Shown here one piece after another: positions 9,801 through 29,981 of a stretch of 32,580 bases of DNA. The notes beneath the pieces are model-generated. The model worked only from the letters and a program-made list of their open reading frames with translations. It did not search any database and was not told where the DNA came from. Positions within the stretch are counted from its first letter, which is position 1. The number at the start of each line of letters is the position of its first letter. A program made the position numbers and the translations under genes. Origin of the DNA: Flavobacteriales bacterium (GTDB taxonomy: Bacteria > Bacteroidota > Bacteroidia > Flavobacteriales_D > Sanyastnellaceae); the NCBI GenBank assembly GCA_029242765.1, contig JAQWTJ010000069.1, positions 1 through 32,580 of the forward strand, read 5' to 3'.

Positions 9801-11387
9801 CAAAACGCGCGTTTCCACATCCATATCGACATAGCCGTCTTGGGCTAACAGCATCAGCATGATGTGCGCCTGGTCCTCAGAAATTCGGAGAAATCGCCCC
9901 ACGTCACGGCTGGTCAGCAGCGAGTCATTGTAATGCCGCACCGCATTGCGCACCTCCACCAACGGGTGCAGATCGGCCATCCCCTGCATGGCCTCATACC
10001 GCTCCTTTTGGAAGCAATTGAGAGAGGCCAATTCAGCATCGCTCTTCGCAGATCCTGGCGGCCCCTGCATCAACAGTCGCGGATCCCCATGCTGCCAAAC
10101 GAGCTGTGTCACATCGACCGTCAAGGCGTGGTAGGAATCGATGAACGGCTTGGGGCCCAAGCCTTCATCGTCTCTCAGTAAACTCAACCTGCGATCGACC
10201 AAGTGATAACGCACATCCAGCTCAGGGTGATACAAGCTGTCCAAGCCAGCGTCTGGGCCTTGGTCGAAATACACCACCGCCCGGGCATCGGTTGCGCGAA
10301 TGACGTCACTCTTAAGAATGATTAGCGGGGCGGTGCAACGCACCAGTGGTTTGTTCTCTCTGAGGAAGACCAATTCAGCCGGCACCTCACCTGAGCCCTT
10401 GCCCTCGAGGGCCGAACCGCGGATGGTCAATCCGCCTGAAAAATTAACGCCCGGCGCTATTTCGTTAATTTCCAAGCGGTTCAAGTACGAGTCAAATCTC
10501 GGGTAAGTCGCTTTAGAGCCTCGGCCCATAGCGCTGGCCTTGTCAGTAATTCGGCCCAAGAGCGGTTCCGGAAATGCATCCGTTCTGAAGAGCGCGCTGT
10601 CCAACGTCAAACTGCTGCCCTTTAAGCGCAAATCAAAGGCGCCAAATGTTGCATAGTTCAGCGTCGGATCCAGGGCTGCTCGACGCCAATCGATACGCCC
10701 TGACTCACCTTTGAGTCGCCCGGTCTTAAAATTCACGAGGCCGTGCAAAGCGGTAACACGCACGGTGTCTCCCTTCGCAAGGCCTAACAATTCGCCTCCG
10801 TTGAACAAAAGTTGTGGCTTGCCTCCGCCCTCAAGTCGCCACGGACCTTCATAACGCCACGTCACAGCATCGCTCTTAAAGAACACGCCCTGGGTGAGCA
10901 GTGGTTTGCCCAGCGGCAAAACCGTGGCCAAAGCGCGGGCATTGCCTGCGTCGGCCAAACCAGCTTGGACAAAGGCATCCCACTCGCGCCAACGGTCTGG
11001 CGTCGTCAAGCCGGCAAGCAAAGCCTGCACGCTACGAACGTACTCAAATTGACCCGGATGCACACCGACCTTGCGCACTGTAAAGAGTTCCATACGTGCC
11101 AGAAAATCCTTGTTGAACTCAAGGCCCAGGGCGGGGTCGAGAATTAGCGGACCAAAGGTCTTCCGGACCCACAAGGCGGCCTCCCGATCATACGGTTGGA
11201 TGGCTTTTTCAAAGGCAAGAAGCCATTGCTGCAGGGCGGCGTCCGTGGCCGCAATCTCAACATCCAACAGGTCGAAATCAGTCGAGTCTGAAGCGGCCTG
11301 AAAAGCCGACACTTGCAACGAGTCGACTTGTGCAGCGAGCGTGGAAATCGGAACGAGAAATGCAAAGAATATCCAGCTGCGGAACAT
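6846..11387 (-). CDS. Very large (1513 aa) exported beta-rich protein of unknown function
   Basis: The chosen start at 11385-11387 begins a signal peptide (MFRSWIFFAFLVPISTLAAQ); the open frame extends 34 codons higher, but that stretch is not protein-like and overlaps the divergent gene's upstream region. I do not recognise a named domain. What is visible: a helical N-terminal part (about 20-160); then long beta-rich sequence with recurring 'layer' phrases such as GRLKGESGRIDWRRA, FSGGLTIRGSALEGKG, FGGTLHAGNLQFEG and GLTGRLTLADAGMHGAG; and a segment at about 480-545 whose helix pattern and following strand look like a winged helix, odd in an exported protein. Repeated G-x-L-x-G strands suggest a long beta-sheet or solenoid fold as in AsmA/TamB or OstA-like envelope proteins, but this is only analogy. 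It is followed within 9 bases by the FadH-like gene. No C-terminal T9SS signal is seen. Confidence 0.75.
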   Translation of the reverse strand: MFRSWIFFAFLVPISTLAAQVDSLQVSAFQAASDSTDFDLLDVEIAATDAALQQWLLAFEKAIQPYDREAALWVRKTFGPLILDPALGLEFNKDFLARMELFTVRKVGVHPGQFEYVRSVQALLAGLTTPDRWREWDAFVQAGLADAGNARALATVLPLGKPLLTQGVFFKSDAVTWRYEGPWRLEGGGKPQLLFNGGELLGLAKGDTVRVTALHGLVNFKTGRLKGESGRIDWRRAALDPTLNYATFGAFDLRLKGSSLTLDSALFRTDAFPEPLLGRITDKASAMGRGSKATYPRFDSYLNRLEINEIAPGVNFSGGLTIRGSALEGKGSGEVPAELVFLRENKPLVRCTAPLIILKSDVIRATDARAVVYFDQGPDAGLDSLYHPELDVRYHLVDRRLSLLRDDEGLGPKPFIDSYHALTVDVTQLVWQHGDPRLLMQGPPGSAKSDAELASLNCFQKERYEAMQGMADLHPLVEVRNAVRHYNDSLLTSRDVGRFLRISEDQAHIMLMLLAQDGYVDMDVETRVLRVKPQLFDHLKNYAGRRDYDVLHFNSTSKGRNGFISLLNHRMLLEGVDRILVSQRRNVLIRPLAGQVVIEKDRDFDFGGTLHAGNLQFEGSDYHFDYETFTVELNKVETCKLRMTDPEDIDPYGRPRKKQIRNNLSEVSGTLRIDAPSNRSGWRAHYYPEYPVLNTDGPSYVFWDAPSVQAGAYTRDRFYFTTEPFRLDSLDDLGRNELRFQGVLNSGGILPEIVHELAVMDDLYLGFETVTDPGGWPLYGGAANYNRGVKLDGKGLQGGGKIEFLTSSAQSDRFTLLPDSTVGVADNFVNSISMGPPEVPVVTGEGAYVAFHPNDRKLTARSRGVPLQFFGAESGLTGRLTLADAGMHGAGTMAFEGAELRSELFNYLARSMVSDTAAFEMLGGDELALAFQTDNVHAEINFDARVGDFVANDGESRIELPANQYACYMDRFKWFIDKDQLELFSDREIDDDFVINTEGREAVANFVSLRPEQDSLQFSAPRALYDVENQVLSCTKVPYIRVADALVLPDSGLVVIRKRAVMDVLKRAGILANEATRYHRLFDARVEVTGRYKYRASADYEYKDENELGQIIHFAEVEVDTSRQTVASGLVHAREDFSLSPFFGFSGEVLLAAGQEHLRFIGGAALLAGCPEMDRMKLAFDAEIDPKDIYIPIDTTLRDVLQSHLGAGFFFRDPYDPGGGPYATFGDRLRGREDERLLSATGDLHFDKRKGSYLIGPRDKMQRFDLPGNLIELKQGGCAVAGYGGVDFPFKYGMMSLKAAGELQGFTTASGLQSDLSMAWDFPFDDGVWKALAELISGWPTADPLDVTSTTWEADLRHWLGLEGADKVWASMTMMGSFKKTPESIDHRLLLTGVELEWDAGEDAFISKGSLGLVSMGKTPVFRELKGKLEMSTGRGGDRVRLYLHMDEDNWYFFDYRNGIMNISTTDQLFIDAIVAIKSDKRKFKSDAGRFSYQVLPTHSRRNEFIDRFEEFD

Positions 11388-11415
11388 GGGGGAAATATGG
11401 GGACGAATCGGCGGC

Positions 11416-11443
11416 TTGCTACATTTTCTGGGCGCTATCTTCG
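11416..11443 (+). promoter_or_regulatory. Candidate promoter of the CapD-like gene
   Basis: TTG (11416-11418), a 17-bp spacer and TATCTTCG (11436-11443; 7/8 match to TAnnTTTG) lie in the 63-base gap between divergent genes. The -7 element ends only 7 bases before the ATG at 11451, implying a very short leader. Confidence 0.35.
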
Positions 11444-11450
11444 CCCAAGT

Positions 11451-13349
11451 ATGAACGCTTTGCGACGCCTTTTCAACGAGAAGCCTCAAATTTTACCGCG
11501 TTGGGTCATTTTAGGAATTGACGCGTGCTTGGCACTGATCGCGCTAGCCTTTGCCTACCAAGTGCGTTTCGAATTCGAGCCGCCGGCCGATGAAATGGTG
11601 CTGGCTCGCAGTTTCTTACCCGTGTTCATCGGAGTGCGTGTGATCGCGTTCTTATGGGCCAAAAGCCACGCGGGTATCATCAGGTTTTCGGGCACCGCTG
11701 ATGCGAGGCGGGTGCTCATCGCATTAGCGTCTGGCACAGGTGTGTTGGCTGCTTTAAACGTTGGTGCGGGATTGGCCCAGCGCCCCTACCCTGCGCCATT
11801 TTCCGTGCTCGCCATCGAATTGATTGCTTCGTTATTGCTATTGATAGGCTTTCGCGTGGTGACACGGTCGGTCTACCAGCGGTTTCAAACTCGTCGGGCC
11901 ACAGACGTCATCATTTTTGGAGCTGGTGAAGCAGGACTGATTACACGGCAAGCCATTGAACGGCCGTCGGAAGACGCCATGCGCGTTGTCGCCTTTTTAG
12001 ATGACGACCCTTCAAAAGTTGGAAAGTGGATTGAAGGCGTCCCGGTGTACAGTGCGGACCGCTTGACCGAAGTGCTGGGCTGGGTAAGTGCTGAACGGAT
12101 GATTGTGGCCATCGAGCATGTGGAACTCGAACGCAAGTCGCGCCTGATCGACGAAGCCCTTGCATGCGGCTTGCGCGTAATGGACGTCCCGCCTGCCCAA
12201 CGTTGGATTCAGGGTGCCTTGAGCAGCCGACAAATTCGTGACGTGCGCATCGAAGACTTGCTGGGGCGCCCCACCATAGAGCTGGACGACAACCATGTGC
12301 GCGAATGTCTAGACGGAACCTGCATCCTGGTTACTGGTGGGGCCGGCTCAATCGGCTCTGAATTGGTTCGCCAAGCTCTGCGCTCTGGAGCTGGTGCGGT
12401 GTGGGCCGTGGACACGGCGGAGACCCCTTTGCATGACCTCACGCTTTCCGTGCGGGCCGAATTCGGTTTGGACACCGAACGCTTTCGGGCCGTAATCGCC
12501 GACGTGAAGGACCCACGAGCCATGCAAGACGTGATGGCTCAATCCAAGCCCGACCTGGTGTATCATGCCGCAGCCTACAAGCACGTGCCCGTTATGGAAA
12601 TGCAGGCCGCTGAAGCGTGGCGAACCAACGTCTTAGGCACAGCCACAGTGGCTGAAGCTGCATTGTCCTCGGGCGTGAGAACATTTGTACTCATCTCGAC
12701 CGACAAGGCCGTCAACCCCTCAAGCGTGATGGGCGCATCGAAACGAGCCGCTGAATTGGTCGTGCGTGCCCTGTGCGAGAACTCCCCCATGCGCAGGGTG
12801 ATCACCCGTTTTGGAAATGTGCTGGGCAGCAATGGAAGCGTCATTCCCTTGTTCAAGCGGCAGATCGAGCAAGGCGGTCCGGTGACGATCACTCATGAAG
12901 ATGTCACGCGCTTCTTTATGACCATTCCCGAGGCTGTTCGGCTGGTCCTAGAAGCGTCAGCCACGTCGGATGGCGATGACATCTTCGTATTCGACATGGG
13001 AGAGCGTATTCGAATCATCGACTTGGCTCGGCGCATGATTCGACTGGCGGGAAGAGTTGAAGGTCAGGATATTGAGCTGAAGGTTATCGGCATGCGGCCC
13101 GGTGAAAAACTGCATGAAGAATTGATACATGAAGCCGAGGGCCTACTGCCCACGCGTCACCCTAAAATTCTCCGAGCACGACCTAGCAAGATTGACCCTT
13201 CAGAAATTCTCAAGACCGTAAATGAGGATCGTCAGGGCTACATCTCCGACGGCAAGGCCATCGAACGGATGCATGATCTCGTCCCAGAATATCACGGCGA
13301 AAATTTGCGAACTTTGCATCCCTTGAAAAGCGAAAGCACGAATACATGA
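11451..13349 (+). CDS. Membrane nucleotide-sugar 4,6-dehydratase (CapD/WbpM/PglF family)
   Basis: 632 residues from the ATG at 11451; the frame is open 46 codons further up, but that part overlaps the divergent gene. The N-terminus has about four membrane spans (about 17-38, 52-70, 86-106, 117-136). A CoA-binding/Rossmann-like region follows (IIFGAGEAG, 154-162; VAFLDDDPSKVG). The C-terminal SDR domain has GGAGSIG (296-302), the STDKA block (416-420) and M427xxxK431, where Met replaces the usual SDR tyrosine, a hallmark of long WbpM/PglF-type enzymes. These convert UDP-GlcNAc (or similar) to the 4-keto-6-deoxy sugar, the first step to diacetamido sugars or QuiNAc/FucNAc in surface glycans or glycoproteins. 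It overlaps the next gene by four bases (ATGA). Confidence 0.9.
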   Translation: MNALRRLFNEKPQILPRWVILGIDACLALIALAFAYQVRFEFEPPADEMVLARSFLPVFIGVRVIAFLWAKSHAGIIRFSGTADARRVLIALASGTGVLAALNVGAGLAQRPYPAPFSVLAIELIASLLLLIGFRVVTRSVYQRFQTRRATDVIIFGAGEAGLITRQAIERPSEDAMRVVAFLDDDPSKVGKWIEGVPVYSADRLTEVLGWVSAERMIVAIEHVELERKSRLIDEALACGLRVMDVPPAQRWIQGALSSRQIRDVRIEDLLGRPTIELDDNHVRECLDGTCILVTGGAGSIGSELVRQALRSGAGAVWAVDTAETPLHDLTLSVRAEFGLDTERFRAVIADVKDPRAMQDVMAQSKPDLVYHAAAYKHVPVMEMQAAEAWRTNVLGTATVAEAALSSGVRTFVLISTDKAVNPSSVMGASKRAAELVVRALCENSPMRRVITRFGNVLGSNGSVIPLFKRQIEQGGPVTITHEDVTRFFMTIPEAVRLVLEASATSDGDDIFVFDMGERIRIIDLARRMIRLAGRVEGQDIELKVIGMRPGEKLHEELIHEAEGLLPTRHPKILRARPSKIDPSEILKTVNEDRQGYISDGKAIERMHDLVPEYHGENLRTLHPLKSESTNT

Positions 13350-17957: not shown

Positions 17958-19682
17958 ATGCCCCGACTGGCATCGATCCATAAAATTTTATTGGCTGCAC
18001 TGGCTTTGCGCTTGGTGGCCGCATTGTTCAGTACAGGCTACTTGATGCACGACGACCACTTTTCGGTCATCGAAACGGCGGCAAGTTGGGCCGATGGCGA
18101 GGACTACAACCGCTGGCTGCCTTGGAATCAAGAAGGTGAACCGCGCGTTTACCCCGCCAATTTTACCTACGTCGGATCCCAATTTCTACTGTTCTCAGCC
18201 CTCAAGTGGACCGGCGTGATCGCCCCGCAAAGCCAGATGCTCATCGTACGCATTTTGCACGCGCTCTACTCCCTTTTGATTGTTGTCTTTGGCTACCAAT
18301 TAACTCTCAGGTTGACACGCGGACTGCGTGGTCAATCCACACTTGAGGACCAAAACGACAGACACGGCGTAAAAAGCGTGGCCTTGAGCGTGGCTTGGAT
18401 CTTGGCGCTCGGCGGCCTCTTTCCAAACCTCTCAGTTCGCAACCTCGCTGAAATGGTGTGCATTCCTCCGCTGCTTTGGGGGTTATCAGCCGCCGTCAAC
18501 CAGCAAAAACTCGACGTAAAGTCCATCGTGATCACGGGACTGGGGCTGGGGTTGGCTACGGGATTGCGATACCAATGCGGCCTCTTCGGAGTGGGCCTGG
18601 CCGCTGTATTGTTCGGGCAGAAGCAATTTGGAACCGCCTTGAAAATTGGGGCCTTAGCACTGGTCACGTTTGCCCTGACACAGCTGCCCGATCTTTTCGT
18701 CTGGGGCGAACCCTTCGTTCAACTGCGCGCTTACTTAGCCTACAACGGAAGCCACGCGGGGGACTACCCCACCGGCCCTTGGTACACCTATCTACTGACC
18801 CTACTTGGCCTGCTCATTCCTCCTGTCAGCTTGCTCATCACCTTCGGACTTTTCTACGGACTGTACGCCTATTTCACTTCGCGTTCACCTGCAGACACAA
18901 GACCTGAAACAGACGCAGCCGACAGCTCAAACACAGAGATCAACCGGGACACCTTGGCGTTGTGGCTAAGAATTGCAGTTCCTGCGTTGTTGTTTCTTGT
19001 CGTGCACAGCATCTACGCAAACAAGCAGGAACGATTCATCTTGTCGGTTGTTCCGCTCGTAATTAGCGCAGGTCTGGTGGGCTGGCAGATGTGGAAGAGC
19101 CGCTCAGCGTGGTGGAATGGGAAGCTTGGATTGCATCTTGAACGCTGGTGTTGGCGTGTATTCTGGGGGTTGAATGCCTTAGCTCTTGTGGTCTTCACTC
19201 CCCTCAAAGGGAAATCCGCCCGTGTGGAGGCCATGGACTTTATGTACGCTCAGCAAGCTCAGAATTTTCTCGTGGTTCAGGTGGATGCTGCGCCCATGAT
19301 GCCGAAATTCTATGCCGGCAGTTGGGCGGACTACTATTGGAGCGACCGCAGAGAAAATCCCAGCGGCAAGTCCGGAAAAAAGACTGACATTGATATCCAA
19401 CGACGCGTCATATGCCGAGGAGAAGGGCGACCTTGGCCCGAGTTCTTTCTTTTCGTTGGGGACGAGCGGTTGGCTGAAGAAGTCGCCATCCACAATGAAG
19501 TCTACCCTGGACTGGTCTATGAAACGACCATTCGACCCAGCCTGTATCATCGGACGCTGCACCGACTCAACCCCATCAACGGTGCGGAACGCATCATGAT
19601 TTATCGCACAGACCGCAGTAAAATTTGCCCAGCAAACCTGCAGGCTCCTGTGAAGACAGAAACCCTAGACCAAAACCCATGA
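17958..19682 (+). CDS. GT22-type (PIG-B/Alg9-like) membrane mannosyltransferase
   Basis: 574 residues with roughly 8-10 membrane segments up to about residue 430 and a soluble C-terminal region. GT-C features: the first extracytoplasmic loop carries the acidic pair HDDH (31-34), the usual site binding the lipid-phosphosugar donor or metal, and HSIYANKQERF (350-360) matches the GT22 'HKExRF' motif of eukaryotic GPI and N-glycan mannosyltransferases (PIG-B, ALG9/12). It would transfer a sugar from a polyprenyl-phosphate donor to an acceptor on the outer face of the inner membrane. The acceptor is unknown. It starts 3 bases after ribH and overlaps the M1 peptidase start (ATGA at 19679-19682). 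Other GT-C families are possible, but the two motifs favour GT22. Confidence 0.75.
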   Translation: MPRLASIHKILLAALALRLVAALFSTGYLMHDDHFSVIETAASWADGEDYNRWLPWNQEGEPRVYPANFTYVGSQFLLFSALKWTGVIAPQSQMLIVRILHALYSLLIVVFGYQLTLRLTRGLRGQSTLEDQNDRHGVKSVALSVAWILALGGLFPNLSVRNLAEMVCIPPLLWGLSAAVNQQKLDVKSIVITGLGLGLATGLRYQCGLFGVGLAAVLFGQKQFGTALKIGALALVTFALTQLPDLFVWGEPFVQLRAYLAYNGSHAGDYPTGPWYTYLLTLLGLLIPPVSLLITFGLFYGLYAYFTSRSPADTRPETDAADSSNTEINRDTLALWLRIAVPALLFLVVHSIYANKQERFILSVVPLVISAGLVGWQMWKSRSAWWNGKLGLHLERWCWRVFWGLNALALVVFTPLKGKSARVEAMDFMYAQQAQNFLVVQVDAAPMMPKFYAGSWADYYWSDRRENPSGKSGKKTDIDIQRRVICRGEGRPWPEFFLFVGDERLAEEVAIHNEVYPGLVYETTIRPSLYHRTLHRLNPINGAERIMIYRTDRSKICPANLQAPVKTETLDQNP

Positions 19683-21535
19683 AATTTCAATCTCTTTTTC
19701 TGGCAGGAATTGGCCTCATTATCACCCTGCAAGCGCAAGCGCAATTCCCGGGTTGGCAGCAAGCTGTTGCTTACACGATGGACATCGACGTGGACGCCGC
19801 ATCACACAGCTACGACGGGGAGATGTCGGTGATGTACACAAACAACAGCCCCGATGCCCTGGATCGGATTCCGTTCCATTTGTTCTTCAACGCCTTTCAG
19901 CCCGGCAGCATGATGGACACGCGAAGCCGCAGCATTGCGGACCCCGATCCGAGGGTGGGCTCCCGCATTGCGGCGCTGGCCCCTGACGAGCAAGGATGGA
20001 TTCACGTGCAGAGCGTTAAGGTGTGGGGCCAGGAAGCGGTTTGGGACCAAGGCGAGGACGAGACCATTGGCTGGGTCAGCCTACCTAAAACGCTAAAGCC
20101 CGGCAAGAAAGTAAAAATTGAAATGCAGTGGAATGCCCAAGTGCCGCTGCAAGTGAGACGTTCCGGATGGATGAACGCCCAAGGTGTGGAATTAAGCATG
20201 ACCCAATGGTATCCAAAGGTGTGCGAATACGACCACCACGGTTGGCATTCAAACCCATACATAGGGCGTGAATTCCACGGCGTGTGGGGCGACTTTGACG
20301 TGACAATCCACCTCGACTCAGCCTACACGGTAGGCGGCACAGGCCTCTTGAAGAACCCCAATGCATGCGGGCACGGCTATGAAGCGGAGGGTGAAACTGG
20401 GGAATACGGTGCGGTGATTCATTGGCATTTTATCGCAAAAGACGTTCACGATTTTGCATGGGCCGCGGACCCGGATTTCCTACACCGCACCCGGACGATG
20501 GACAACGGCACCGATTTACACTTCATCTATCAGAACGACACGTCGTACGGCGCTTGGGAAGAATTGCCCGCGATTTGCGAGCGCATTTTCACGTATTACA
20601 ACGCGCACGTCGGCGAGTACCCCTATGCGCAATACACTGTAATTGAAGGCGGTGACGGAGGAATGGAGTACCCCATGTGCACGCTGGTTCGCGGAAATAG
20701 AAGTTTGATGAGCCTGGTCGGCGTCACGGCCCACGAGGCAGCACACGCATGGTTTCAAGGGGTCCTCGCCACCAATGAGAGCCTCCACGAATGGATGGAC
20801 GAGGGCTTCACCTCGTGGATTGAGTCCGAGTTTATGGCCGAAGAGTATCCCAATCCAGAGATGCCCGACCACGGGTGGGCGTACTTGGGCTATTTGAGTG
20901 TGGCGGGCACGGGCAAGGAGCAAGCCCTTTCTACGCACGCCGACCATTACACCACCAACCGCAATTACGGCCTTGCCGCCTACAGCAAGGGGGAGGTTTT
21001 CCTAGAAATGCTCGGCGCTGTGGTCGGTGATGACGTGCGTGATGCAGCGGTGAAGGCCTACTTTAAGGAATGGGGCTTCCGCCACCCTGGGCCGACGGAC
21101 TTCAAGCATGTGGTGGAGGGCTTGAGCGGACTGGAGCTGGATTGGTATTTTCAATACATGGTGCATTCAACAGCCTATATTGATTTCGCAATCGACGAGG
21201 TGCGCGTGACTACAGACTCGACGTTTATCACCTTGTCACGCCCAGGCTCCATGCCCATGCCGCTGGAATTGCGCATCACTTCGGCCAGCGGTGTGTCACA
21301 AGATTACTTAATCCCTATGCGCTTGATGCAGGGGCATCGGGCCTTGGGCGAGGGCGAAATCCTATTGGAGGACTGGCCCTGGACGGAGCCAACGTATCAT
21401 TTAGCCCTGCCGGTGTCCATGCCGGGATTGACCGTGGAGTTGGACCCTGAGCGCAAGTTTGCTGAAACCGAGGGTGGTGATAACACGGTGGCCCTTCCAG
21501 TGGAAGTGTTGCAGTCGTGGAAGGCCAAAAATTAA
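19679..21535 (+). CDS. Secreted M1-family zinc metallopeptidase
   Basis: 618 residues from the ATG at 19679, which overlaps the glycosyltransferase stop (ATGA). An N-terminal signal peptide (MKFQSLFLAGIGLIITLQAQAQ) directs export. The M1 catalytic site is intact: HEAAH (352-356), with the third zinc ligand E375 exactly 18 residues after the second His (in DEGFTSW). The GAMEN-like exopeptidase motif is altered to GGMEYP (327-332, preceded by GGDG), so specificity may differ from classical aminopeptidases. The N-terminal half is a beta-rich M1 domain. It probably trims peptides outside the inner membrane. No sorting signal is seen at the C-terminus. It lies in the same run as bioY and a second M1 enzyme. 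Confidence 0.9.
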   Translation: MKFQSLFLAGIGLIITLQAQAQFPGWQQAVAYTMDIDVDAASHSYDGEMSVMYTNNSPDALDRIPFHLFFNAFQPGSMMDTRSRSIADPDPRVGSRIAALAPDEQGWIHVQSVKVWGQEAVWDQGEDETIGWVSLPKTLKPGKKVKIEMQWNAQVPLQVRRSGWMNAQGVELSMTQWYPKVCEYDHHGWHSNPYIGREFHGVWGDFDVTIHLDSAYTVGGTGLLKNPNACGHGYEAEGETGEYGAVIHWHFIAKDVHDFAWAADPDFLHRTRTMDNGTDLHFIYQNDTSYGAWEELPAICERIFTYYNAHVGEYPYAQYTVIEGGDGGMEYPMCTLVRGNRSLMSLVGVTAHEAAHAWFQGVLATNESLHEWMDEGFTSWIESEFMAEEYPNPEMPDHGWAYLGYLSVAGTGKEQALSTHADHYTTNRNYGLAAYSKGEVFLEMLGAVVGDDVRDAAVKAYFKEWGFRHPGPTDFKHVVEGLSGLELDWYFQYMVHSTAYIDFAIDEVRVTTDSTFITLSRPGSMPMPLELRITSASGVSQDYLIPMRLMQGHRALGEGEILLEDWPWTEPTYHLALPVSMPGLTVELDPERKFAETEGGDNTVALPVEVLQSWKAKN

Positions 21536-21545
21536 GGACAGCACG

Positions 21546-22097
21546 ATGTTCAGAGTCGAACTTCAAAGGGGATTGGGGCGCTGGAGCGACTTGGCCGGGG
21601 CGTTGTTTACGGCCTTGACCTTGGCACTGCTTGCGCCCATCACACTCGACTTTCGGGCGGACCTCCCCATCACGCTGCAGTCGTTGCTGGTGCTTTGGCT
21701 GCCGTGGGTGATGGGCTGGCGCGCAGGGGCGGCGGGCGTAATTGGCTATCTGGTTTTGGGGGCCGCCGGAGTCCCTGTGTTTTCAGGTGGCGCCGCAGGG
21801 CTTGCGCCATTGACCGGGGTGACCGGTGGGTATTTGCTAATGTTTCCATTGGCCGCCACCGCCGTGGGCTTGTGGGGCGAACATGTGCGGAGCCTAAAAT
21901 TCTTGCACACGGCTGCAGCCATGATTGCAGGTCACGCCTTGATTCTTGCCGGAGGCCTATTCTGGCAGTACCAAATTGCACCTCCCCAACACAGCCCTTT
22001 CGAGCTCATTCAAATGCTCACCCCTGCCATTGCCGTCAAATCATCCCTTGGCCTTCTGCTCACCGTACTGGTATCGCGGGTCATTTCTCATACCTAA
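21546..22097 (+). CDS. bioY: BioY biotin transporter, ECF-type S component
   Basis: 183 residues from the ATG at 21546, 10 bases after the preceding stop. About six hydrophobic segments cover the whole protein. BioY hallmarks: LPITLQSLLVLW (40-51), GAAGVIGYLVLGAAGVPVFSGG (61-82) and GLAPLTGVTGGYLLMFPLAA (85-104). BioY binds biotin and imports it, alone or with the ECF ATPase/T subunits, in the inner membrane. No ecfA/ecfT or bioMN gene is in this window, so it is either a solitary BioY or shares a remote energising module. It lies between two M1 peptidase genes. No biotin-responsive site is evident, because transcription seems to start far upstream. Confidence 0.9.
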   Translation: MFRVELQRGLGRWSDLAGALFTALTLALLAPITLDFRADLPITLQSLLVLWLPWVMGWRAGAAGVIGYLVLGAAGVPVFSGGAAGLAPLTGVTGGYLLMFPLAATAVGLWGEHVRSLKFLHTAAAMIAGHALILAGGLFWQYQIAPPQHSPFELIQMLTPAIAVKSSLGLLLTVLVSRVISHT

Positions 22098-22107
22098 ATT
22101 GCCCCAC

Positions 22108-24006
22108 ATGTTTCGCATCTTTCAACTCGGCCTGTGTGTTTTGGGCCTGATCGGATTGGCCTTTTCGCAAACCGGTTGCAGCAGCTCTTCGACCCAAGAA
22201 TCAACTGAGCAAATTGTTCCACACGCCATCATCATCAACCAAGTCATGGACCATCACAGTTACAGCCGTCCCGAAGAGGCGCGCGTCACCCACCTCGAAT
22301 GGGACGCTCATGTGGATTTCGACAGCCGCACCATCACGGCCACGGCCACTTACACGGTTGAAGCGGCCGAAGATGCCGAGCGCATACTGTTCGACACCCA
22401 CGACTTAACCGTTGCATCGGTCACCGTCGACGGGAAAGACGCAACGTTCAACTTGGGCGCTGCGCGCGAATTTTTAGGCCAGCCCTTGAGCATTGATTTG
22501 ACGGGAACTGCAAAGGAAGTGGCCATCACCTACACGTGCAGCCCTGGAGCCGACGCCTTGCTTTGGGTGGAAGGCGACGAGGAGCACCAGCCCTTCCTCT
22601 TCACGCAGAGCCAAGCAATTCTAGCGCGCACCTGGCTGCCATGCCAAGACAGCCCCGGCATCCGCTACACGTACAACGCACAAGTGCAAGTGCCCTCTGG
22701 GCTCATGGCGCTGATGAGCGCGGAAAACCCAACTGAAAAGTCAGCCGACGGCCGCTACAGCTTCTCCATGAAGCAGGCCATCCCATCCTATCTCATGGCC
22801 TTGGCTGTTGGTGATGTGGAGTTCCGCGGTGTGGGAGAGCACACTGGCGTATACGCGATTTCCGATTTGATTGAAGCTTCGGCCTACGAATTTTCAGAGC
22901 TCGACGCCTTGCTTCACGCCGCTGAGAACCTTTATGGACCGTACGCTTGGGAGCGCTACGACCTGCTGGTTCTTCCCCCTGCTTTCCCATTCGGCGGAAT
23001 GGAAAATCCGCGTTTAACATTCGTCACACCCACCATCATTGCTGGGGACCGATCGCTCGTATCACTAGTAGCCCACGAACTCGCCCACAGCTGGTCGGGA
23101 AATCTGGTGACCAACTCCACGTGGGATGACTTTTGGCTCAACGAAGGATTTACCGTGTACTTCGAGCAGCGCATCATGGAAGATGTCTACGGCCGGGACA
23201 TCTCAGAGATGTTGGTCACGCTCAGCTACCAAGGCCTCGTGGACGAAGTCGATGCCATCATGGATGTCAACCCAGATGACACGCATTTGAAACTGCACTT
23301 GCAGGGCAGAAACCCCGACGATGGCATGACGGCCATCGCCTACGACAAGGGCTACTTCTTCCTGCGCCTGCTGGAGGAAACTGTGGGCCGCAACACCTTT
23401 GACGCCTTCCTGCGCGGCTATTTTGAAGCCCACGCCTTCAAGGTCATGGACACGGACGGTTTCATCGAATACCTGAACGCGCACCTGCTCACCGACGAGC
23501 GGCAGCGGACGGCCGTGAATCTAGACGCTTGGATTTTCGGGGCGGGGCTACCTGCCAACTGCCCCGAAGTGAAGAGCCGCCGCATCGAAGGTGTGGACGC
23601 CGTACTGATTGGATGGTCTCAAGGCCTGATGCCAACCGAGCAATTGCCTTGGGAGAGCTGGCTCTACCAAGAGCGCTACCGATTTTTGTCCAACCTCCCC
23701 GACGATACATCGGCCGACCGTATGGCTGAACTCGACATCAAATGGGGGATTGGCTCAACTGGAAACAACGAAGTCCTTTTTGCTTGGCTGGAGCAGTCCA
23801 TTCGATCTCAATACCAGCCGGCTTACCCGCGCATGCGACAATTCCTTATCGAAGTGGGCCGCCGTAAATTCCTTACGCCGCTATACAAAGCCCTGAAAGA
23901 AACGGGTCAACTGGACCTTGCTCGCGAAATCTACGCAGCAGCTCGCCCGGGGTACCACGCCGTGGCCACAGGCACTATGGACGACCTCCTCGGCCCACCC
24001 GAGTAA
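22108..24006 (+). CDS. LTA4H-like M1-family zinc metallopeptidase, lipoprotein
   Basis: 632 residues from the ATG at 22108, 10 bases after bioY. The N-terminus (MFRIFQLGLC...SQTGCSSSS) is a lipoprotein signal with the cysteine at 24, unlike the preceding M1 enzyme. The exopeptidase motif is the canonical GGMENP (296-301), the zinc site is HELAH (323-327), and E346 is the third ligand (WLNEGFTVYFEQ). Sequence around TLVSYQ-like and YDKGYFFLRLLEE, plus the C-terminal helical domain (about 480-632), fit leukotriene-A4-hydrolase/aminopeptidase B relatives. It likely hydrolyses short peptides at the cell envelope. This is the last gene of the six-gene run; no clear terminator was found before the convergent T9SS gene. 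Confidence 0.9.
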   Translation: MFRIFQLGLCVLGLIGLAFSQTGCSSSSTQESTEQIVPHAIIINQVMDHHSYSRPEEARVTHLEWDAHVDFDSRTITATATYTVEAAEDAERILFDTHDLTVASVTVDGKDATFNLGAAREFLGQPLSIDLTGTAKEVAITYTCSPGADALLWVEGDEEHQPFLFTQSQAILARTWLPCQDSPGIRYTYNAQVQVPSGLMALMSAENPTEKSADGRYSFSMKQAIPSYLMALAVGDVEFRGVGEHTGVYAISDLIEASAYEFSELDALLHAAENLYGPYAWERYDLLVLPPAFPFGGMENPRLTFVTPTIIAGDRSLVSLVAHELAHSWSGNLVTNSTWDDFWLNEGFTVYFEQRIMEDVYGRDISEMLVTLSYQGLVDEVDAIMDVNPDDTHLKLHLQGRNPDDGMTAIAYDKGYFFLRLLEETVGRNTFDAFLRGYFEAHAFKVMDTDGFIEYLNAHLLTDERQRTAVNLDAWIFGAGLPANCPEVKSRRIEGVDAVLIGWSQGLMPTEQLPWESWLYQERYRFLSNLPDDTSADRMAELDIKWGIGSTGNNEVLFAWLEQSIRSQYQPAYPRMRQFLIEVGRRKFLTPLYKALKETGQLDLAREIYAAARPGYHAVATGTMDDLLGPPE

Positions 24007-24100: not shown

Positions 24101-27100
24101 TTAGCGCGTCAATGTCAAGCCGCCGCGGAACTCCTTCTTCTCGTGCTGCGTCTTTGAATAGATCACCACGCGGTATGTGTACATCGCATCTTGTGCGTAA
24201 TACTGCTCTTCGGCCGGAGCTTCTTGCTCAGCTTGCCCAATCCAGCCGTTGTTCAACTCCGTGGTTTCAAAAATCAATTCACCCCAACGATTGAACACCT
24301 GCATGAGAAAGCGATCCGGGTCAATGTCCGTGCCGTACACCTTGAAGATGTCATTGAACCCGTCATTGTTTGGAGTAAACGCATTGGGGATGTAGACATT
24401 GAAGAAGTCGTAAATCTCAATGTAGCGTGTGATTTGGTTGCTGCATCCATTGGTGTCCACAACAGCCAAGGTCACGGGGTACAAACCGCCACGATCGAAA
24501 GGAAAGCGGAAGGAAGGGTCCGGCAAATCCGAGTATCCCAGAGCCAGTGTTGAATCAAAGGTCCACCACCATTCCACCACATTTGATGACACCGAGGATT
24601 CAAATTCGATGTACGTGTCAGGTGCAGTGGTCGGCTGAGGCGTGGCGTTGTATCCAACGTTGGGTACGTCGAACAAAGCAATGTAGTCGTTTTCAAAAGC
24701 TGTATACACGCAACCCGTGGTGGACGTCACCGTCAAAGCCACATCATAGATGCCCGGGTTGTCATAGGTGTGGATTGGAGCTTGGCTAATCGAATTACCA
24801 CCGTCGCCGAAGTCCCATGTCAAAGCCGTCAGCGAAGTGGTCGGCATGTTGTGAGCAAACACAAAAGCCTGTGGCGCACAGCCACGCGTTGTGTCCACTG
24901 AGAGTTGCACATCAAAAGGCACTTCCACCTCCACTTCCATGCAGGCCGTTACTTCAGGCGAAGTACAGTTGTCTGAGAAAGTCACGCAGAACTCGCCGGT
25001 AACTGGGGGCTGATTATAGGCCACCTCGCCGGTCGAAACCGCTGCCGACTCCCAGGTCCAAACCCAGTTGTAGCCCGAACCGGACCCGCCAGAAGAAGCA
25101 ATGGCCGTCAATTCCACGCTGTCGCCCAAACAAATCAAATCATCAGCCGCAATGTTCACCACCAGTGGGTCGTACACACCGATGGTCACGCTGCCTGGCA
25201 AAGTGATGCAGCCCGCCGCATCGACCCCTTCAACGTCATAGGTTGTCGTGCCCGTTGGTGAAACCAAGATCGTCGACCCCACCGCCACGGCTTGTCCCCC
25301 GGAAGTCCATGTGTAGATCCAAGGCCCTCCCGATTCAGCTTCCACTGAAATTGTGGCTGTTCCATTGATGCAAACCACATCGTCATCAGAAACTGTCAAG
25401 GAAGGCGGCGAAGGATCAGCCAGGTCAAATTCAATCACGTACTCGCAGCCCAATGCATCGCTCACCGTCAAAGTGTAGTCCCCAGACTCCAAGTCGGCAA
25501 AAGTGTGCGTGCCGCCCGCAAAGTTGAGCGACTCAATAGAGCCGAGCACGTTGGACAAGTCCACTTGCCAAGGGCCATCACTGGCCGGCTCATTAATCAC
25601 CAACTCGATCCAACCGTCCGTAATCAAGCACGTGGGATCAGCAAAGTCCGAAGTGAACTCAAAACCCGGCAACACAAGCACCGTGTCCGTGGTGGCGCAA
25701 TTGTCCAAACCAATAGGCTCCACGAAGGCAACATATTCAGTGGGGCTGCCATCGAAGGTGTTCACCGTCGGCGAGGCGGTATTCGCACCGTCCAAATCGT
25801 CGGCAGGCTCCCAAGACCAAAGGAAGCCACAAGCATCTCCCCCGCCGCAACCAATGCACCAAGTGATTGGGTCAAAGGCTCCAGAACCACAGCTCACGCT
25901 GGCATCCGATGTAATCAGGACCGTCAAACAACCGTCGGGGTTGGTGGCCACAACAGACGTCTCATTGAACAAGCCCTGGATTTGGGTGATTTGTGGCGCG
26001 AACACATTGTCTCCGTCGTAGAATGTGATGGCATCAAAGAAATTCTCAACCTGACCCGCGCTCAAGGTGATGCTCATCATCGTACCATCGCCAGGGACGT
26101 CAGGGCAGTACGTGTAAATGTCATTTGCACTGTTGTCGTAGCACACCACCTCGGTGCCTTCTGATCCGCTACAGGCCGAAGGGCCGCCCCCGATAAACGC
26201 ACCTTGCAATTGAACTGCATCGCCGCAAAAAATAACATCCGGTCCAGCAGTGATGCTGTTCTCTGGCCCTTCCACCACCTCGACGGTGAGCGTGGTATCG
26301 AAGGTGCAGCTGAAGTTGTTCGTCACCGTGAAGGTGTAATCATAAAAGCCCGGGTTGTCCAGCAAAATATCTGCATAGTTCAAGTCCAAATCTTGGTCCA
26401 CGATGCCAGGGCCCGTCCAATACGACGAGTCCATGCCCAATCCAATCACCGGAGTAAATGTGGTGACCCCAGGAATCAAGGTGGGGTCGAAATTCAAACC
26501 CCACTCGAAGATGTAGCCGTTGTCAATAGCCAAATTGTCCAGCACAGAAAAGGTCCATGTGCCGTTGAGGGGACAGCCGACCAAGTCGCAGAGATTGTTT
26601 TCAGAAGTGTAAATGCCAGGATTAACAATGTTGTTGTTCTCCGCGTTGCCCGCATTGTCGGTGTACGCCGTCATCGTCCAATTGGCATTGTCGTTGATGT
26701 TCGTCGCGAAGTCCGGGTTGGGCGACCAACCGTAATCGTAGCCCGTGCCAGGCAAATTAGAGCCGTCATCCACGGCTTCTCCCAAGTAGCACCCGCCTCC
26801 CCCGTTGGGAAAGGTCATGATGTCTACAAGCGTGCCGTTGGGGCATTGAATGCTCAAGGCCAAATCACCGAGGTAACTGTGCTCTAGGTTCACCGTGATG
26901 GAGAGCAAATCGTCACAATCATCTAGCGTTGCACCGTCGTCGAAAAAGTCAAAATTCAAATCGGATGAATACGAGAACCCTGCGCCGTCGGCCAAGTAGG
27001 TTTCACCGGCCACCACTTGGGGCGGGAGGGCCGTCCACGTGATCGATTGGACGGGGTTGCCATCCACAAAACCAGGACTTCCTGCACAGATGGGGGTGCT

Positions 27101-27889
27101 GGAAATCGAATTGAACTCCGGGATGGTGCTGACCAGCACCTGTAGAGGCTGTACGTTCAGCGACACACAACCGTTGTTGTCCACCACCGCCAGCTGGACC
27201 ACGTATTCGCCAGGCTCGTCAAAGGCATAGAACACACTTCCTGCAACGCCTAACGAGTCCACATTTCCGTCATCGAAGTTCCAAATCCAGTTGTCCAGGG
27301 TGAATCCCGGCGCAGAGGCCGAACCCATGTCAGAGAACTCCAAAGTCTGGCCCATGCACACGCCCACGCTTTGCAAACCCGGATCCAGTGGCAAAGGATC
27401 GACAATGGCCGAGGCGGCCGTGGGCGGGTCGCATGGCGTGGTGCAGGTCACTATGGCCTCCCAACCTGGACATCCTACCCCTCCCCCACATCCAGTGTTC
27501 GCCCCGATGCTCTGGAACACAAAAGTCAAGCAGCCCGAAGGGTTATTTACAGTCGCCGTCACGGGCAGGCCTTGAAGCGTCGTTCCGGTGTAGCTTCCCA
27601 ATGTGGGCGAACCCGCATCTGGCCCGTCGTAAATGTAGAGCTGGTCGCTGTTGTTTGGGTTTGGATTGGTCTCCAAGTTGAAAGCCACGAACATCGCTGA
27701 AACCACGTCGTCCGGGGAGTCTGGACAAATCGTGAAGGTGTAATCTGTTTCAGAGTAGGCCGCACCGTCGCCATCGTCAACAAAAACACCGTCACACATA
27801 TCGACAGTTCCGTCAAAAATCAAGGTGTTTTGAGCGGCAATTGGCATGGTCAATGCCATAAGAATTACCATACAGAAACGTCCGGTCAT
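24101..27889 (-). CDS. Large T9SS type B cargo protein with CUB, P-domain, PKD and SprB-like repeats
   Basis: 1262 residues. Signal peptide (1-20, ...LTMPIAAQ), CUB-like domain (about 25-150), PKD (about 180-255, NWIWNFDDG), a proprotein-convertase P-domain (about 300-468: LEHSYLGDLALSIQCPNG, NGTWTFSVLDN), a second CUB-like domain (about 580-680), an SprB-repeat-like stretch (about 743-826), Ig-like domains (about 830-990), two PKD-like domains (about 993-1158, TWDFGDG) and a type B C-terminal sorting domain (about 1163-1262: IPNAFTPNNDGFNDIF, FNRWGELIFE, ending FRGGLTLTR). This is a cell-surface or secreted protein exported by T9SS. Many paired cysteines suggest disulfides. No catalytic domain was seen, so adhesion or matrix binding is likely. 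It lies 89 bases after a sigma-factor / membrane PKD gene pair. Confidence 0.9.
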   Translation of the reverse strand: MTGRFCMVILMALTMPIAAQNTLIFDGTVDMCDGVFVDDGDGAAYSETDYTFTICPDSPDDVVSAMFVAFNLETNPNPNNSDQLYIYDGPDAGSPTLGSYTGTTLQGLPVTATVNNPSGCLTFVFQSIGANTGCGGGVGCPGWEAIVTCTTPCDPPTAASAIVDPLPLDPGLQSVGVCMGQTLEFSDMGSASAPGFTLDNWIWNFDDGNVDSLGVAGSVFYAFDEPGEYVVQLAVVDNNGCVSLNVQPLQVLVSTIPEFNSISSTPICAGSPGFVDGNPVQSITWTALPPQVVAGETYLADGAGFSYSSDLNFDFFDDGATLDDCDDLLSITVNLEHSYLGDLALSIQCPNGTLVDIMTFPNGGGGCYLGEAVDDGSNLPGTGYDYGWSPNPDFATNINDNANWTMTAYTDNAGNAENNNIVNPGIYTSENNLCDLVGCPLNGTWTFSVLDNLAIDNGYIFEWGLNFDPTLIPGVTTFTPVIGLGMDSSYWTGPGIVDQDLDLNYADILLDNPGFYDYTFTVTNNFSCTFDTTLTVEVVEGPENSITAGPDVIFCGDAVQLQGAFIGGGPSACSGSEGTEVVCYDNSANDIYTYCPDVPGDGTMMSITLSAGQVENFFDAITFYDGDNVFAPQITQIQGLFNETSVVATNPDGCLTVLITSDASVSCGSGAFDPITWCIGCGGGDACGFLWSWEPADDLDGANTASPTVNTFDGSPTEYVAFVEPIGLDNCATTDTVLVLPGFEFTSDFADPTCLITDGWIELVINEPASDGPWQVDLSNVLGSIESLNFAGGTHTFADLESGDYTLTVSDALGCEYVIEFDLADPSPPSLTVSDDDVVCINGTATISVEAESGGPWIYTWTSGGQAVAVGSTILVSPTGTTTYDVEGVDAAGCITLPGSVTIGVYDPLVVNIAADDLICLGDSVELTAIASSGGSGSGYNWVWTWESAAVSTGEVAYNQPPVTGEFCVTFSDNCTSPEVTACMEVEVEVPFDVQLSVDTTRGCAPQAFVFAHNMPTTSLTALTWDFGDGGNSISQAPIHTYDNPGIYDVALTVTSTTGCVYTAFENDYIALFDVPNVGYNATPQPTTAPDTYIEFESSVSSNVVEWWWTFDSTLALGYSDLPDPSFRFPFDRGGLYPVTLAVVDTNGCSNQITRYIEIYDFFNVYIPNAFTPNNDGFNDIFKVYGTDIDPDRFLMQVFNRWGELIFETTELNNGWIGQAEQEAPAEEQYYAQDAMYTYRVVIYSKTQHEKKEFRGGLTLTR

Positions 27890-27978
27890 AGGTTAGTCAG
27901 GTTCTGGCTTGCAAGCACAAAGGAAGAACCAAAAGCGCCTCAAAAGGGTTGCCTTCGATTCAAACTTTCAGTGATTTA

Positions 27979-29310
27979 TCATTCAACTTCGATGACATCT
28001 GAAAAATAAGCTGTCTTCCCATCAGAAAAATGCTGGATAACAGACCAATGATAACGCCCGCCACTTTGCGCCCACTTTCCACTGGGCAGCTGACCGTCCC
28101 ACGGCTTGCGGACCGAAGAGGTCAAGAAGATGGTCTCACCATCCCAACCGGTGATATGCAATTCAAAGGTGCCATCTGAGCGTTGTAGTCCTTTAGGCAT
28201 GAAGGTGTCGTACAGGCCGTCATCGTTCGGACTGAATCTCGCCGGGGCTTGCAATCCAAAACGATTACCCACCTCAACGTGCTCGCTCACAGTGGCCTGG
28301 CAACCCAGTCCGTTGCTGACAATAAGTTGAACCGTATGCTCCCCTACGCGGTCCATCTCGACGGCCGGCTCCAGTTCGTCCACCACCAAGTCACCGTCGA
28401 ACACCCACATGCTCGACGCCGCGTCAGTGCTTTGATTGTGAAAAGCAACCAAGGGGCGTTCTTGGGCCCTAGAAGGAAATTTCCAAGTAAAATTCGCAAT
28501 GGGTTTCGGGTGGATGGTCACCATGTTTTCTATGGTACGCGTTCGGATCATGCCGTCCTTATTGCGCGTCAAACTGAGCGTCACGTCATACACCCCGGCC
28601 TCTCTAAACACGTGCGAAGGCGTATACTCCGCTGAAAAACGACCGTCGCCAAAGTTCCAAAGCACACGCGTCCCTACAAGTTGGTGTGTCGTGGAAAAGG
28701 CCACCTCGGACCCAACGCAAGCCTCGTCCAAAGTTGATCCAAATGCTGTGCGCTCCTCTGGCGGCACCTCATCCCATGAACGTCGCGTCGGCACGGACGC
28801 CTCAGATTCCTCGGCCTCTACCGGCTCGGCCTCAACAAGTGTTGAAATGGCGGCAGGCGCAGCTTCGCGCTGAGGCGCAGGCTCCTCTATTGTCAGGTCT
28901 TCAACAACTTCAGGCTCCTCCGTCGCTTCTTCAAGGTCGTACACTGCAACCGACAAATCATCCCCCTCAGAACCGAAAGAGCTCTCCTCTTCAAGCACTT
29001 GGACAACAATCTGTTCTTGCTTGTCAGAATCATCGTCACCTAACCACACGTAACCGCCCCACATCACCAAGGCACCGCCTACAGCAGCAGCTCCCAGTTT
29101 TGCTTGGATAAGCCAGCGCGCACCTTGCGCAGCACCCGCCGCAACGGCACCGCCCTGAATAGCACCCTCCATCCACGACCAAGCTGGAGCTGCCAATCCA
29201 GGCGCACGATCCAAAGCCTTACGCATGCCCGTTTCAAGAGGCACACCTGAGGCCTTGCGGTCCTCTGAGTTCTCCTGATTACCCTTGCTTGACGATCCTT
29301 CTTTAGTCAT
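27979..29310 (-). CDS. Membrane protein with PKD domains and sorting-type C-terminal domain; probable anti-sigma/sensor
   Basis: 443 residues from the ATG at 29308-29310; a GTG five codons up is an alternative. There is no signal peptide. Regions: a cytoplasmic N-terminus (1-70) with METGMRKALDRAPGLAAPAWSWMEGAI-like pattern (about 26-52) that resembles the short sigma-binding helices (F/L..ALE...PPxxxWexI) of Bacteroidota anti-sigma proteins; one membrane helix (about 72-90); an acidic Glu/Pro/Ala linker (about 100-190); two PKD-like domains (about 195-346, LWNFGDGRFS); and a CHU_C/type B sorting-like domain (350-443: ARFSPNDDGLYDTFMP) ending ...SDVIEVE rather than in a basic tail. It overlaps the sigma gene stop by 8 bases. 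By context it probably senses the envelope and controls the sigma factor; that role is inference. Confidence 0.75.
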   Translation of the reverse strand: MTKEGSSSKGNQENSEDRKASGVPLETGMRKALDRAPGLAAPAWSWMEGAIQGGAVAAGAAQGARWLIQAKLGAAAVGGALVMWGGYVWLGDDDSDKQEQIVVQVLEEESSFGSEGDDLSVAVYDLEEATEEPEVVEDLTIEEPAPQREAAPAAISTLVEAEPVEAEESEASVPTRRSWDEVPPEERTAFGSTLDEACVGSEVAFSTTHQLVGTRVLWNFGDGRFSAEYTPSHVFREAGVYDVTLSLTRNKDGMIRTRTIENMVTIHPKPIANFTWKFPSRAQERPLVAFHNQSTDAASSMWVFDGDLVVDELEPAVEMDRVGEHTVQLIVSNGLGCQATVSEHVEVGNRFGLQAPARFSPNDDGLYDTFMPKGLQRSDGTFELHITGWDGETIFLTSSVRKPWDGQLPSGKWAQSGGRYHWSVIQHFSDGKTAYFSDVIEVE

Positions 29311-29932
29311 TTCTCTTCTTATCACTCTGTCGTCCGCTTCCCTTGGCTATGCGCTCCATCAAGATCACCTTGAGGTTGCGCCTCGCTTTGGCGTAATTGG
29401 ACTTTGATGTACCGACACTGATGCCCAGTTTCAATGCAATATCCTTGTGACCAAACTGCTCGATAGCAAACAGGTTGAACACGGCCCTGTACATCGGCGT
29501 GAGTTGATCCATGGCCTCGATGATGTCATCTTGGCCTAGAGTTGCCCACACCGGCTCTTCTTCCTCACTCAACGCATCGTCCACGATGTTGTCGAGCATC
29601 TCCTCATTATCTCCCACCAGCCACACCGACTTTCTGGACCGAAGTGCGTCAATGGCGGTGTTCACCATAATTCGCCGCATCCATCCTTCAAACGAGCCTC
29701 TAAATGTGTAGCCTTCGATATTTGCGAAGACTTTCAGGAACCCGTCCTGCAACACATCTAATGCGTCAGCCTCGGACTTGATATAACGGCGAATTGCCAA
29801 TATCATCACCGGTGCAAACCGCTCGTAAATAAGTCGATAACCTTCGGACTCCTTCGCTTGAGAACGCTCAATCCAGCGCCGCAAAACAACGGGGTCCACA
29901 GGGGTAGACGAAGGATTGACGAATGGCTTCAT
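29303..29932 (-). CDS. ECF-like RNA polymerase sigma-70 factor
   Basis: 209 residues from the ATG at 29930-29932; the frame is open 89 codons higher but that part runs antisense into mnmA. Region 2 is at about 33-100 (YERFAPVMILAIRRYIKSEADALDVLQDGFLKVFANI, with FEGWMRRIMVNTAIDALRSRK) and region 4 at about 140-190 (LTPMYRAVFNLFAIEQFGHKDIALKLGISVGTSKSNYAKARRNLK). There is no region 3, so this is an ECF (group 4) type. An acidic linker (DNEEMLDNIVDDALSEEEE) joins the two regions. It redirects RNA polymerase to a specific promoter set, probably autoregulated. The overlapping downstream gene is the likely anti-sigma partner. It is divergent from mnmA across 61 bases. Confidence 0.92.
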   Translation of the reverse strand: MKPFVNPSSTPVDPVVLRRWIERSQAKESEGYRLIYERFAPVMILAIRRYIKSEADALDVLQDGFLKVFANIEGYTFRGSFEGWMRRIMVNTAIDALRSRKSVWLVGDNEEMLDNIVDDALSEEEEPVWATLGQDDIIEAMDQLTPMYRAVFNLFAIEQFGHKDIALKLGISVGTSKSNYAKARRNLKVILMERIAKGSGRQSDKKRND

Positions 29933-29981
29933 AAAAGGTTGCCCGGGGCGCAGCAATATGCACACGCTTTGCCGAATATCG

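Follow-up and report, generated by a model that had tools for sequence, protein, structure and literature searches.

Genes and features at the locus

The window analysed, a 32,580-nucleotide stretch of DNA from a Flavobacteriales bacterium (assembly GCA_029242765.1, contig JAQWTJ010000069.1, positions 1 to 32,580 of the forward strand), contains three consecutive minus-strand genes encoding an extracytoplasmic function (ECF) sigma factor, an overlapping membrane protein that is a putative anti-sigma factor, and a cargo protein of the type IX secretion system (T9SS). Coordinates are given in Table 1; loci are cited by L numbers and genomes by G numbers. All three genes, as listed in a preliminary description of the window, were present, and their domain profiles agreed. 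The sigma factor was assigned to the ECF group on regions 2 and 4 above the curated cut-offs (Sigma70_r2 51.3 bits, cut-off 24; Sigma70_r4_2 48.7 bits, cut-off 25.7; TIGR02937 81.2 bits) and a length of about 200 residues. PKD_4 matched the membrane protein with 53.2 bits (cut-off 27). The cargo protein has a signal-peptide-like stretch at its N-terminus (by eye) and scored 44.4 bits with TIGR04131. The distinction drawn earlier between a 'sorting-like' domain on the membrane protein and a true type B sorting C-terminal domain (CTD) on the cargo is reflected in CHU_C scores of 22.6 versus 59.4 bits; across the 2.22 Mb and 110 contigs of the window genome, CHU_C matched 27 times at E <= 0.001, and 25 of these matches exceeded the cut-off.

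Two gene starts were revised. The sigma start proposed earlier, ATG 29932, lies inside the conserved promoter at 29943-29918, and because it falls between the -35 and -10 parts of that promoter the likely start is GTG 29899. The overlap of the sigma and membrane-protein genes was confirmed; with the membrane-protein start placed at ATG 29310 it comes to 8 bp, ATGACTAA, shared by the sigma stop and the membrane-gene start.

Table 1. Features of the sigma/membrane-protein/cargo locus and two predicted sigma-target sites elsewhere in the window genome (G000)
Feature	Position	Strand	Basis or remark
Predicted ECF promoter GGCAACC-N15-CGTC, 5' of sigma gene	29918..29943	-	Pattern match; site at 29943-29918
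ECF sigma factor, likely start GTG 29899, 198 aa	29303..29899	-	Pfam r2 and r4_2, TIGR02937; start revised
Membrane-anchored putative anti-sigma factor P0001, 443 aa	27979..29310	-	Probable start ATG 29310
Two-helix cytoplasmic motif (N motif), putative sigma-binding region, residues 25-57	29140..29238	-	AlphaFold2 (AF2) and alignment of 98 orthologues
Predicted transmembrane helix, residues 66-85	29056..29115	-	AF2 helix at low pLDDT; hydropathy maximum
Predicted disordered tether, residues 88-178	28777..29049	-	AF2 pLDDT mostly <50
Two PKD domains, residues 190-348	28267..28743	-	Pfam and AF2
Divergent T9SS type B CTD, residues 350-443	27982..28263	-	CHU_C below cut-off; pLDDT ~97; alignment
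89-bp gap, membrane gene to cargo	27890..27978	-	GGCAACC without CGTC; TTCCTTTG near housekeeping -7 box
T9SS cargo, 1262 aa: P-domain, PKD, Ig_7, type B CTD	24101..27889	-	Pfam/NCBIfam
Canonical type B CTD of cargo, residues 1167-1252	24134..24391	-	CHU_C 59.4 bits
Predicted DUF5684 promoter (outside the window)	G000:C44:17631-17656		Locus to 17991 (L300, L415)
Candidate small RNA (outside the window)	G000:C29:14840-14929		L298; just below promoter; also L367-L393

Conservation of the gene order

A search for the membrane protein covered 100 related genomes, from which stretches of at most 20 kb were extracted; Cryomorpha ignava (L174) and one Vicingaceae genome (L189) are among the sources. 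The scan took in 187 loci, and in 116 of them a membrane protein matched the profile from its N-terminal end (N-terminally cut loci were left uncounted); these comprised 98 distinct proteins, 18 loci being set aside as duplicates. L042, which is cut, and L054, nearly a copy of L046, were not used in alignment A1. Although none of the 116 loci was selected via its sigma gene, a same-strand ECF sigma gene lay directly upstream of the membrane protein in every one (116/116), and the two genes overlapped by 4, 8 or 11 bp in 61 of the 98 distinct loci. Downstream, where at least 4.5 kb of sequence was available (73 loci), a CTD cargo of at least 500 residues started within 1.2 kb in 65, with a median gap of 107 bp, a median length of 1265 residues and a largest protein of 4638; some genomes, e.g. 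at L046, have three long cargo-like open reading frames (ORFs) in a row. The check suggested in the preliminary description, a search for the same order in other Bacteroidota, was thus passed, and in the genomes compared the three-gene order is real, conserved and far above chance. When the whole phylum was searched with the full profile, only two genomes yielded full-length matches, a result that proves no absence because five candidates were scored per genome.

Membrane protein and predicted sigma contact

In the AF2 model of the window membrane protein (65 alignment rows), helices were predicted at residues 25-35 and 43-57 with a predicted local distance difference test score (pLDDT) of 52-70, followed by a helix at 66-85 that was read as the membrane span (low pLDDT, coinciding with the hydropathy maximum), a disordered tether and a PKD-PKD-CTD array at pLDDT ~97. 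Hydropathy and AF2 thus place some 65 residues ahead of the first hydrophobic helix. The alignment consensus of the N region is F[ED]xx[LI][KR]x[AS][LFY]xxxExP[YF]xxxxWxx[LM]xxx[LM] over 98 proteins, with the tryptophan in 94, and no FecR domain was matched by Pfam in the window membrane protein at E <= 1. Prediction and alignment bear out the plan put forward earlier, with anti-sigma-like helices, a single span, PKD domains and a sorting-like CTD. By eye the motif looks doubled in L093 and L095, and a sigma partner in genome G074 (L245:779-1474) has apparently three tandem two-helix motifs ahead of its membrane helix.

At eight loci, reading through stops gave a continuous sigma factor plus N motif, and L159 was folded as such a fusion. 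The fold alignment (A4) contained 8 continuous rows, 27 of 88 sigma-only rows and 27 matching motif rows; L078 and L157 were dropped for a missing anchor motif. The model had a pTM of 0.81 and block-mean pLDDT values of 84, 94 and 96 for the motif helices, compared with 52-70 for this region when the window protein was modelled without sigma; this rise is a hint only, because protein and alignment differ between the two models. The sigma factor in the fused model was compact and resembled SigW in complex with RsiW (Z 13.8, root mean square deviation (rmsd) 5.6 over 158) and CnrH in complex with CnrY (Z 11.3, rmsd 6.3 over 151), and polymerase-bound ECF sigma factors that align over both domains deviated from it by an rmsd of 21-28. 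Membrane helix, disordered tether and docking of the N motif on sigma are predictions of these models. Synteny, gene overlap, the shared N motif and the docking model together support in silico the pairing of sigma factor and membrane protein that had been proposed, and the two very probably form a sigma/anti-sigma pair with predicted binding.

Sorting domain of the membrane protein

The CTDs of membrane proteins and downstream cargo were compared. The signature CTD loop was found in 111/113 cargo CTDs versus 65/98 membrane-protein CTDs, and a C-terminal R or K in 111/113 versus 37/98; because a CTD profile was used to choose the cargo set (113 of the 147 long ORFs downstream), that set is biased to canonical CTDs. 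For the SprB CTD of F. johnsoniae, export is reported to need every one of its five conserved motifs (PMC12618676, cited in part), and the signature loop may be one of these five. The comparison suggests that the partner CTD is a 'retired' sorting domain, relaxed in features that cargo CTDs keep. The earlier idea of a decoy also gains in silico support from these relaxed features and from the membrane anchor, which is internal and follows some 65 residues.

Modular family of CTD-bearing sigma partners

Further partners were sought from the sigma side; five genomes gave 109 sigma-region-4 matches, and 30 of these loci were fetched. Three membrane proteins of a second class (class II; L233, L246 and L234) had an N-terminus resembling the motif (scores of 27.8, 21.4 and 4.2, respectively, against the profile), a membrane helix, one PKD domain and a CTD above the CHU_C cut-off. 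Sixty genomes of the class were searched and 16 short candidates inspected, which added 11 N-motif proteins (six of class II, five of class I). A sigma gene lay upstream of all 11; it lay upstream of none of five short CTD ORFs without the motif, of which only L289 and L291 could be judged, the other three running off the sequence. Beside class I sigma factors of families f8 and f9, L439-L445 all have the N motif (L444 weakly) and a CTD. Two of them, L439 and L445, have no PKD domain and keep a CTD above the CHU_C cut-off; the CTD and not the PKD domains is therefore the constant outer part. Sequence comparison thus shows the gene pair with its overlap, a two-helix N motif and an outer part of 0-2 PKD domains plus CTD; it also shows one type of promoter ahead of the sigma gene, a DUF5684 membrane-protein gene and a small-RNA-like element. 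The second class, with its own sigma factor and one or no PKD domain, comprises L233, L234, L246, L278-L283, L448, L450-L452 and L458.

Other sigma partners have apparent C-terminal beta-barrels (L449, L455, L459, L460, L465 and L467); four of these six matched a Pfam barrel, all below the cut-off. Against the N motif their N-termini scored 15, 11, 23, none, 2 and -0.1, respectively, so that the link to the plan of the Bacteroides Dma proteins is more one of layout than of motif. Together with L218, whose barrel was judged by eye and has no Pfam match, they show a membrane helix, a long tether and a probable C-terminal barrel in a Dma-like layout.

Promoter and predicted regulon

The pattern GGCAAC-N14..18-CGTC was found upstream of the sigma gene in 73/98 loci and on the reverse strand in none; 73 is a lower bound, because the over-extended ORF start in the window hid its own site. 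A matrix built from 72 sites matched 84/98 sigma upstreams at p <= 0.01, a figure that is partly circular. Among the 30 fetched sigma loci the pattern occurred only at class I L235 and L237 and at the small-RNA-adjacent L238; class I loci in families f8 and f9 had it in 5/8 cases, and the GGCAACC promoter was found at none of nine class II loci (L278-L283, L294-L296). On this promoter pattern the sigma factor is very likely autoregulated.

Promoter sites were collected from eight genomes (65 sites, of which 30 were inspected), and exact matches exceeded the control in six of the eight. A recurrent predicted target was a small membrane protein with DUF5684 (PF18936), which was searched in 60 genomes; its gene was placed by profile in all of the 30 best loci, and the promoter (N14..17) stood upstream in 28 of them (reverse strand 0; shuffle mean 0.04) and in 12/20 further loci, paralogues included. 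DUF5684 loci in relatives are L337-L366. A small-RNA-like element was also found, made up of the promoter, a variable hairpin, the near-invariant 26-base stretch GGTTTCAAAATTTTCCTTGCAGGTTT and a terminator. The promoter was present in 22/25 loci with the core; as the search query contained the promoter, loci whose match excluded the -35 box were counted separately, and 14/17 carried it. Matches to the element occurred in 31/70 relatives, weak ones included. All three promoter sites, of sigma operon, DUF5684 gene and small RNA, are present in the window genome, and DUF5684 and the small RNA are likely targets of the sigma factor as judged from these sites. Secreted proteins appeared as extra sites in single genomes, including a 348-residue CTD protein in the near relatives L324 and L326.

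Searches with the small RNAs of L316, L323 and L298 gave no Rfam 15 match at the gathering threshold, and RNAalifold gave no supported consensus for the alignment (7 pairs, none changed on both sides). In 22/26 sequences the invariant stretch was preceded by a stem with 5 or more Watson-Crick pairs (mean 6.2 versus 3.4 in mononucleotide shuffles), which is weaker evidence than a covariation test. The 12-base complement of the invariant stretch was rejected as a target finder: of 21 matches in ten genomes (control 2), 9 were the RNA locus itself, and no target is claimed because the other 12 have no shared gene. In L316, L318 and L323 the promoter occurs twice at a spacing of 77-80 bp, and the first copy lies within the end of an upstream ORF that by eye resembles a response regulator gene.

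Control of the cargo gene

Seventy cargo upstreams were examined, 7 of which were shorter than 60 bases and were left out, giving 63 gaps. Terminator-like hairpins were found in 27/63 (shuffle mean 0.56, maximum 3; at least that of L033 looks false) and the housekeeping -7 box TAnnTTTG in 24/63 (shuffle mean 6.3, maximum 13). A match to the sigma-type promoter occurred in 8/63 at p <= 0.01, where about 0.6 were expected, the highest scores being those of L164, L130, L146 and L076; the strict promoter was present in 1 of the 70 upstreams. Terminators and housekeeping-type promoters often precede the cargo gene, and its candidacy as a general sigma target was rejected; the effect of sigma on the cargo gene raised in the preliminary description is thus unsupported as a general rule. 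In a few lineages the sigma factor may control the cargo, as the promoter matches indicate. The constant cargo neighbourhood suggests an input role better than a role as target.

Proposed mechanism and alternative explanations

The preferred explanation is an autoregulated ECF sigma factor that would be held at the inner membrane by the partner encoded directly behind its gene. On its tether through the periplasm, the CTD-like domain of the partner would dock to whichever of the SprA translocon and a PorP/SprF shuttle reads type B CTDs, or would compete with cargo at that reader. Since PorP/SprF barrels are reported to bind type B CTDs (PMC9143113 and PMC12618676, each in the part cited), sensing of these receptors or of the translocon is the simplest idea. 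A change in this contact, by cargo backing up or receptors falling empty, would free the sigma factor, which would then raise expression of its own operon as well as of DUF5684 and the small RNA. The neighbouring cargo would more likely be the reference cargo, and so the input, than a target. Taken whole, a membrane-held autoregulated sigma factor with CTD-based T9SS sensing is the best explanation and somewhat favoured; on its own, the claim that the partner CTD is a T9SS sensor is evenly balanced. More tentative is a whole family of anti-sigma factors in Bacteroidota that would use a T9SS sorting domain as sensor, either as a decoy or delivered by the machine to the surface, and that would run a secretion-stress response with small RNA and DUF5684. 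A parallel is the sigma-E response of enterobacteria, in which sigma-E and its small RNAs act on behalf of the outer membrane.

A number of observations weigh against the preferred explanation. The window CTD is below the curated cut-offs (CHU_C 22.6 versus 27 bits; TIGR04131 18.1 versus 35), the loop is missing from 33/98 membrane-protein CTDs, and the domain is barely recognisable by eye in L087, L092, L129-L132, L134 and L136, so that the T9SS reading cannot hold for all lineages; the bias of the cargo set also bears on the contrast with cargo CTDs. An adjacent cargo is absent in 8/73 loci, and among 13 window proteins scanned there was no PorP/SprF or translocon gene, the scan being confined to the window. 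Contact with sigma is predicted by modelling and contact with the T9SS is inferred. The fused model has an artificial joint and comes without predicted aligned error and without a control using another motif, and SigG1, for which no anti-sigma factor is named in the entry, fits the compact form too (rmsd 4.8 over 153). Class I L240 lacks the strict promoter, and of five class I loci outside the gene order three carry the pattern and two do not. The regulon looks small, since exact matches to the promoter were no more numerous than those to the reversed pattern used as control in the window genome (10 versus 11), G005 (13 versus 17) or G056 (7 versus 28).

One alternative is an ordinary ECF sigma/anti-sigma pair in which the PKD-CTD part would bind an external ligand, for instance a glycan or peptidoglycan, and the CTD would survive just as an Ig-like fold. 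It would account for the PKD domains, for the loop eroded in a third of the CTDs and for the best PDB fold matches, which are fragments of the adhesin GhpA. Dma2 has moreover been hypothesised to be a glycan sensor (PMC13088901, in the part cited). This explanation is nevertheless unlikely, as the PKD domains are dispensable while the CTD stays (L439, L445), the three class II partners tested keep a CTD above the cut-off, and a CTD cargo adjoins in 65/73 loci. For anti-sigma sensing through an Ig-like fold, RsgI-type sensors serve as a model beside the Dma type.

If the sorting signal of the partner still worked, the T9SS would export the PKD-CTD part to the surface while the N-terminus stayed cytoplasmic, so that the protein would span both membranes and report surface attachment. 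The plan shared with Dma (PMC13088901, in part), the ~90 predicted disordered tether residues, which could span the periplasm, and the class II and PKD-less members with CTDs above the CHU_C cut-off are in its favour; it is improbable, however, since features of secreted CTDs are missing from many class I members, each of the five CTD motifs is reported to be needed for export of the SprB CTD (PMC12618676, in part), and an anchored substrate might jam the channel. Very improbable is co-inheritance, by which the downstream cargo would be the main target of the sigma factor and the sorting-like domain a relic of an ancestral cargo. The conserved adjacency and the 8/63 sigma-type promoters before the cargo agree with it, but the terminator-like hairpins and housekeeping -7 boxes in the pre-cargo gaps, and the single strict promoter in 70 upstreams, do not.

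Relation to known systems

In FecI/FecR/FecA signalling an inner-membrane anti-sigma factor reads an outer-membrane machine, and the module described here is likened to it; unlike that system, no TonB-dependent transducer was found among the 13 window proteins scanned. With Bacteroides Dma, as far as the cited text describes it (PMC13088901), the module shares the gene pair, an N-terminal sigma-binding region, one transmembrane helix, a long disordered tether and a large outer domain. The outer domain of Dma is a beta-barrel, whereas here it consists of PKD domains and a T9SS type B CTD, and the N regions are compared by layout; as the barrel is absent, the module was not classed as Dma. Nor was it classed as a T9SS substrate. 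The analogy suggests an ECF sigma/anti-sigma kind in which a CTD replaces the Dma barrel.

In P. gingivalis, PorA/PorXY-SigP likewise has a CTD protein feeding into a T9SS ECF sigma factor (PMC7712824, in part), but PorA sits on the surface and acts on a two-component pathway, while in the present module the putative anti-sigma factor itself carries the CTD; the route by which the CTD protein acts on the SigP pathway is described there as not known. The SM6 regulon of F. psychrophilum has ECF-type CGT-box promoters at the sigma/anti-sigma pair THC0290_1774/1773, at T9SS genes and at the small RNA Rfp11, the sigma factor for these T9SS genes being not settled in the part of the report cited (PMC9723704). 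CnrY, a class II anti-sigma factor, has two helices as does the N motif (PMC7406223, in part); the sigma factor of the fused model resembles CnrH in the CnrH-CnrY complex, the likeness being one of structure, and the sensor part of CnrY is unrelated. The class I anti-sigma domain is reported near only 6% of Bacteroidetes ECF genes (PMC7406223, in part), and the two-helix motif could be one of the missing anti-sigma kinds in this group. Among the matches listed in a literature search, no publication on a CTD-bearing anti-sigma factor was found. A sigma partner tagged with a sorting domain would be a direct link for the sensing of T9SS state in Bacteroidota; as the pair is found in many relatives with a predicted target set, it may be how these bacteria watch their T9SS. 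The promoter, small RNA and DUF5684 target would be ready reporters.

Other features of the window

A minus-strand ORF of 1547 residues (6846-11489) had no Pfam match at E <= 0.001. On the plus strand, two M1 family peptidases flank a BioY gene (19625-24006) and are convergent to the cargo gene. The window also contains, on the minus strand at 1777-2134, a bacterial class A RNase P RNA (RF00010, 196.9 bits).

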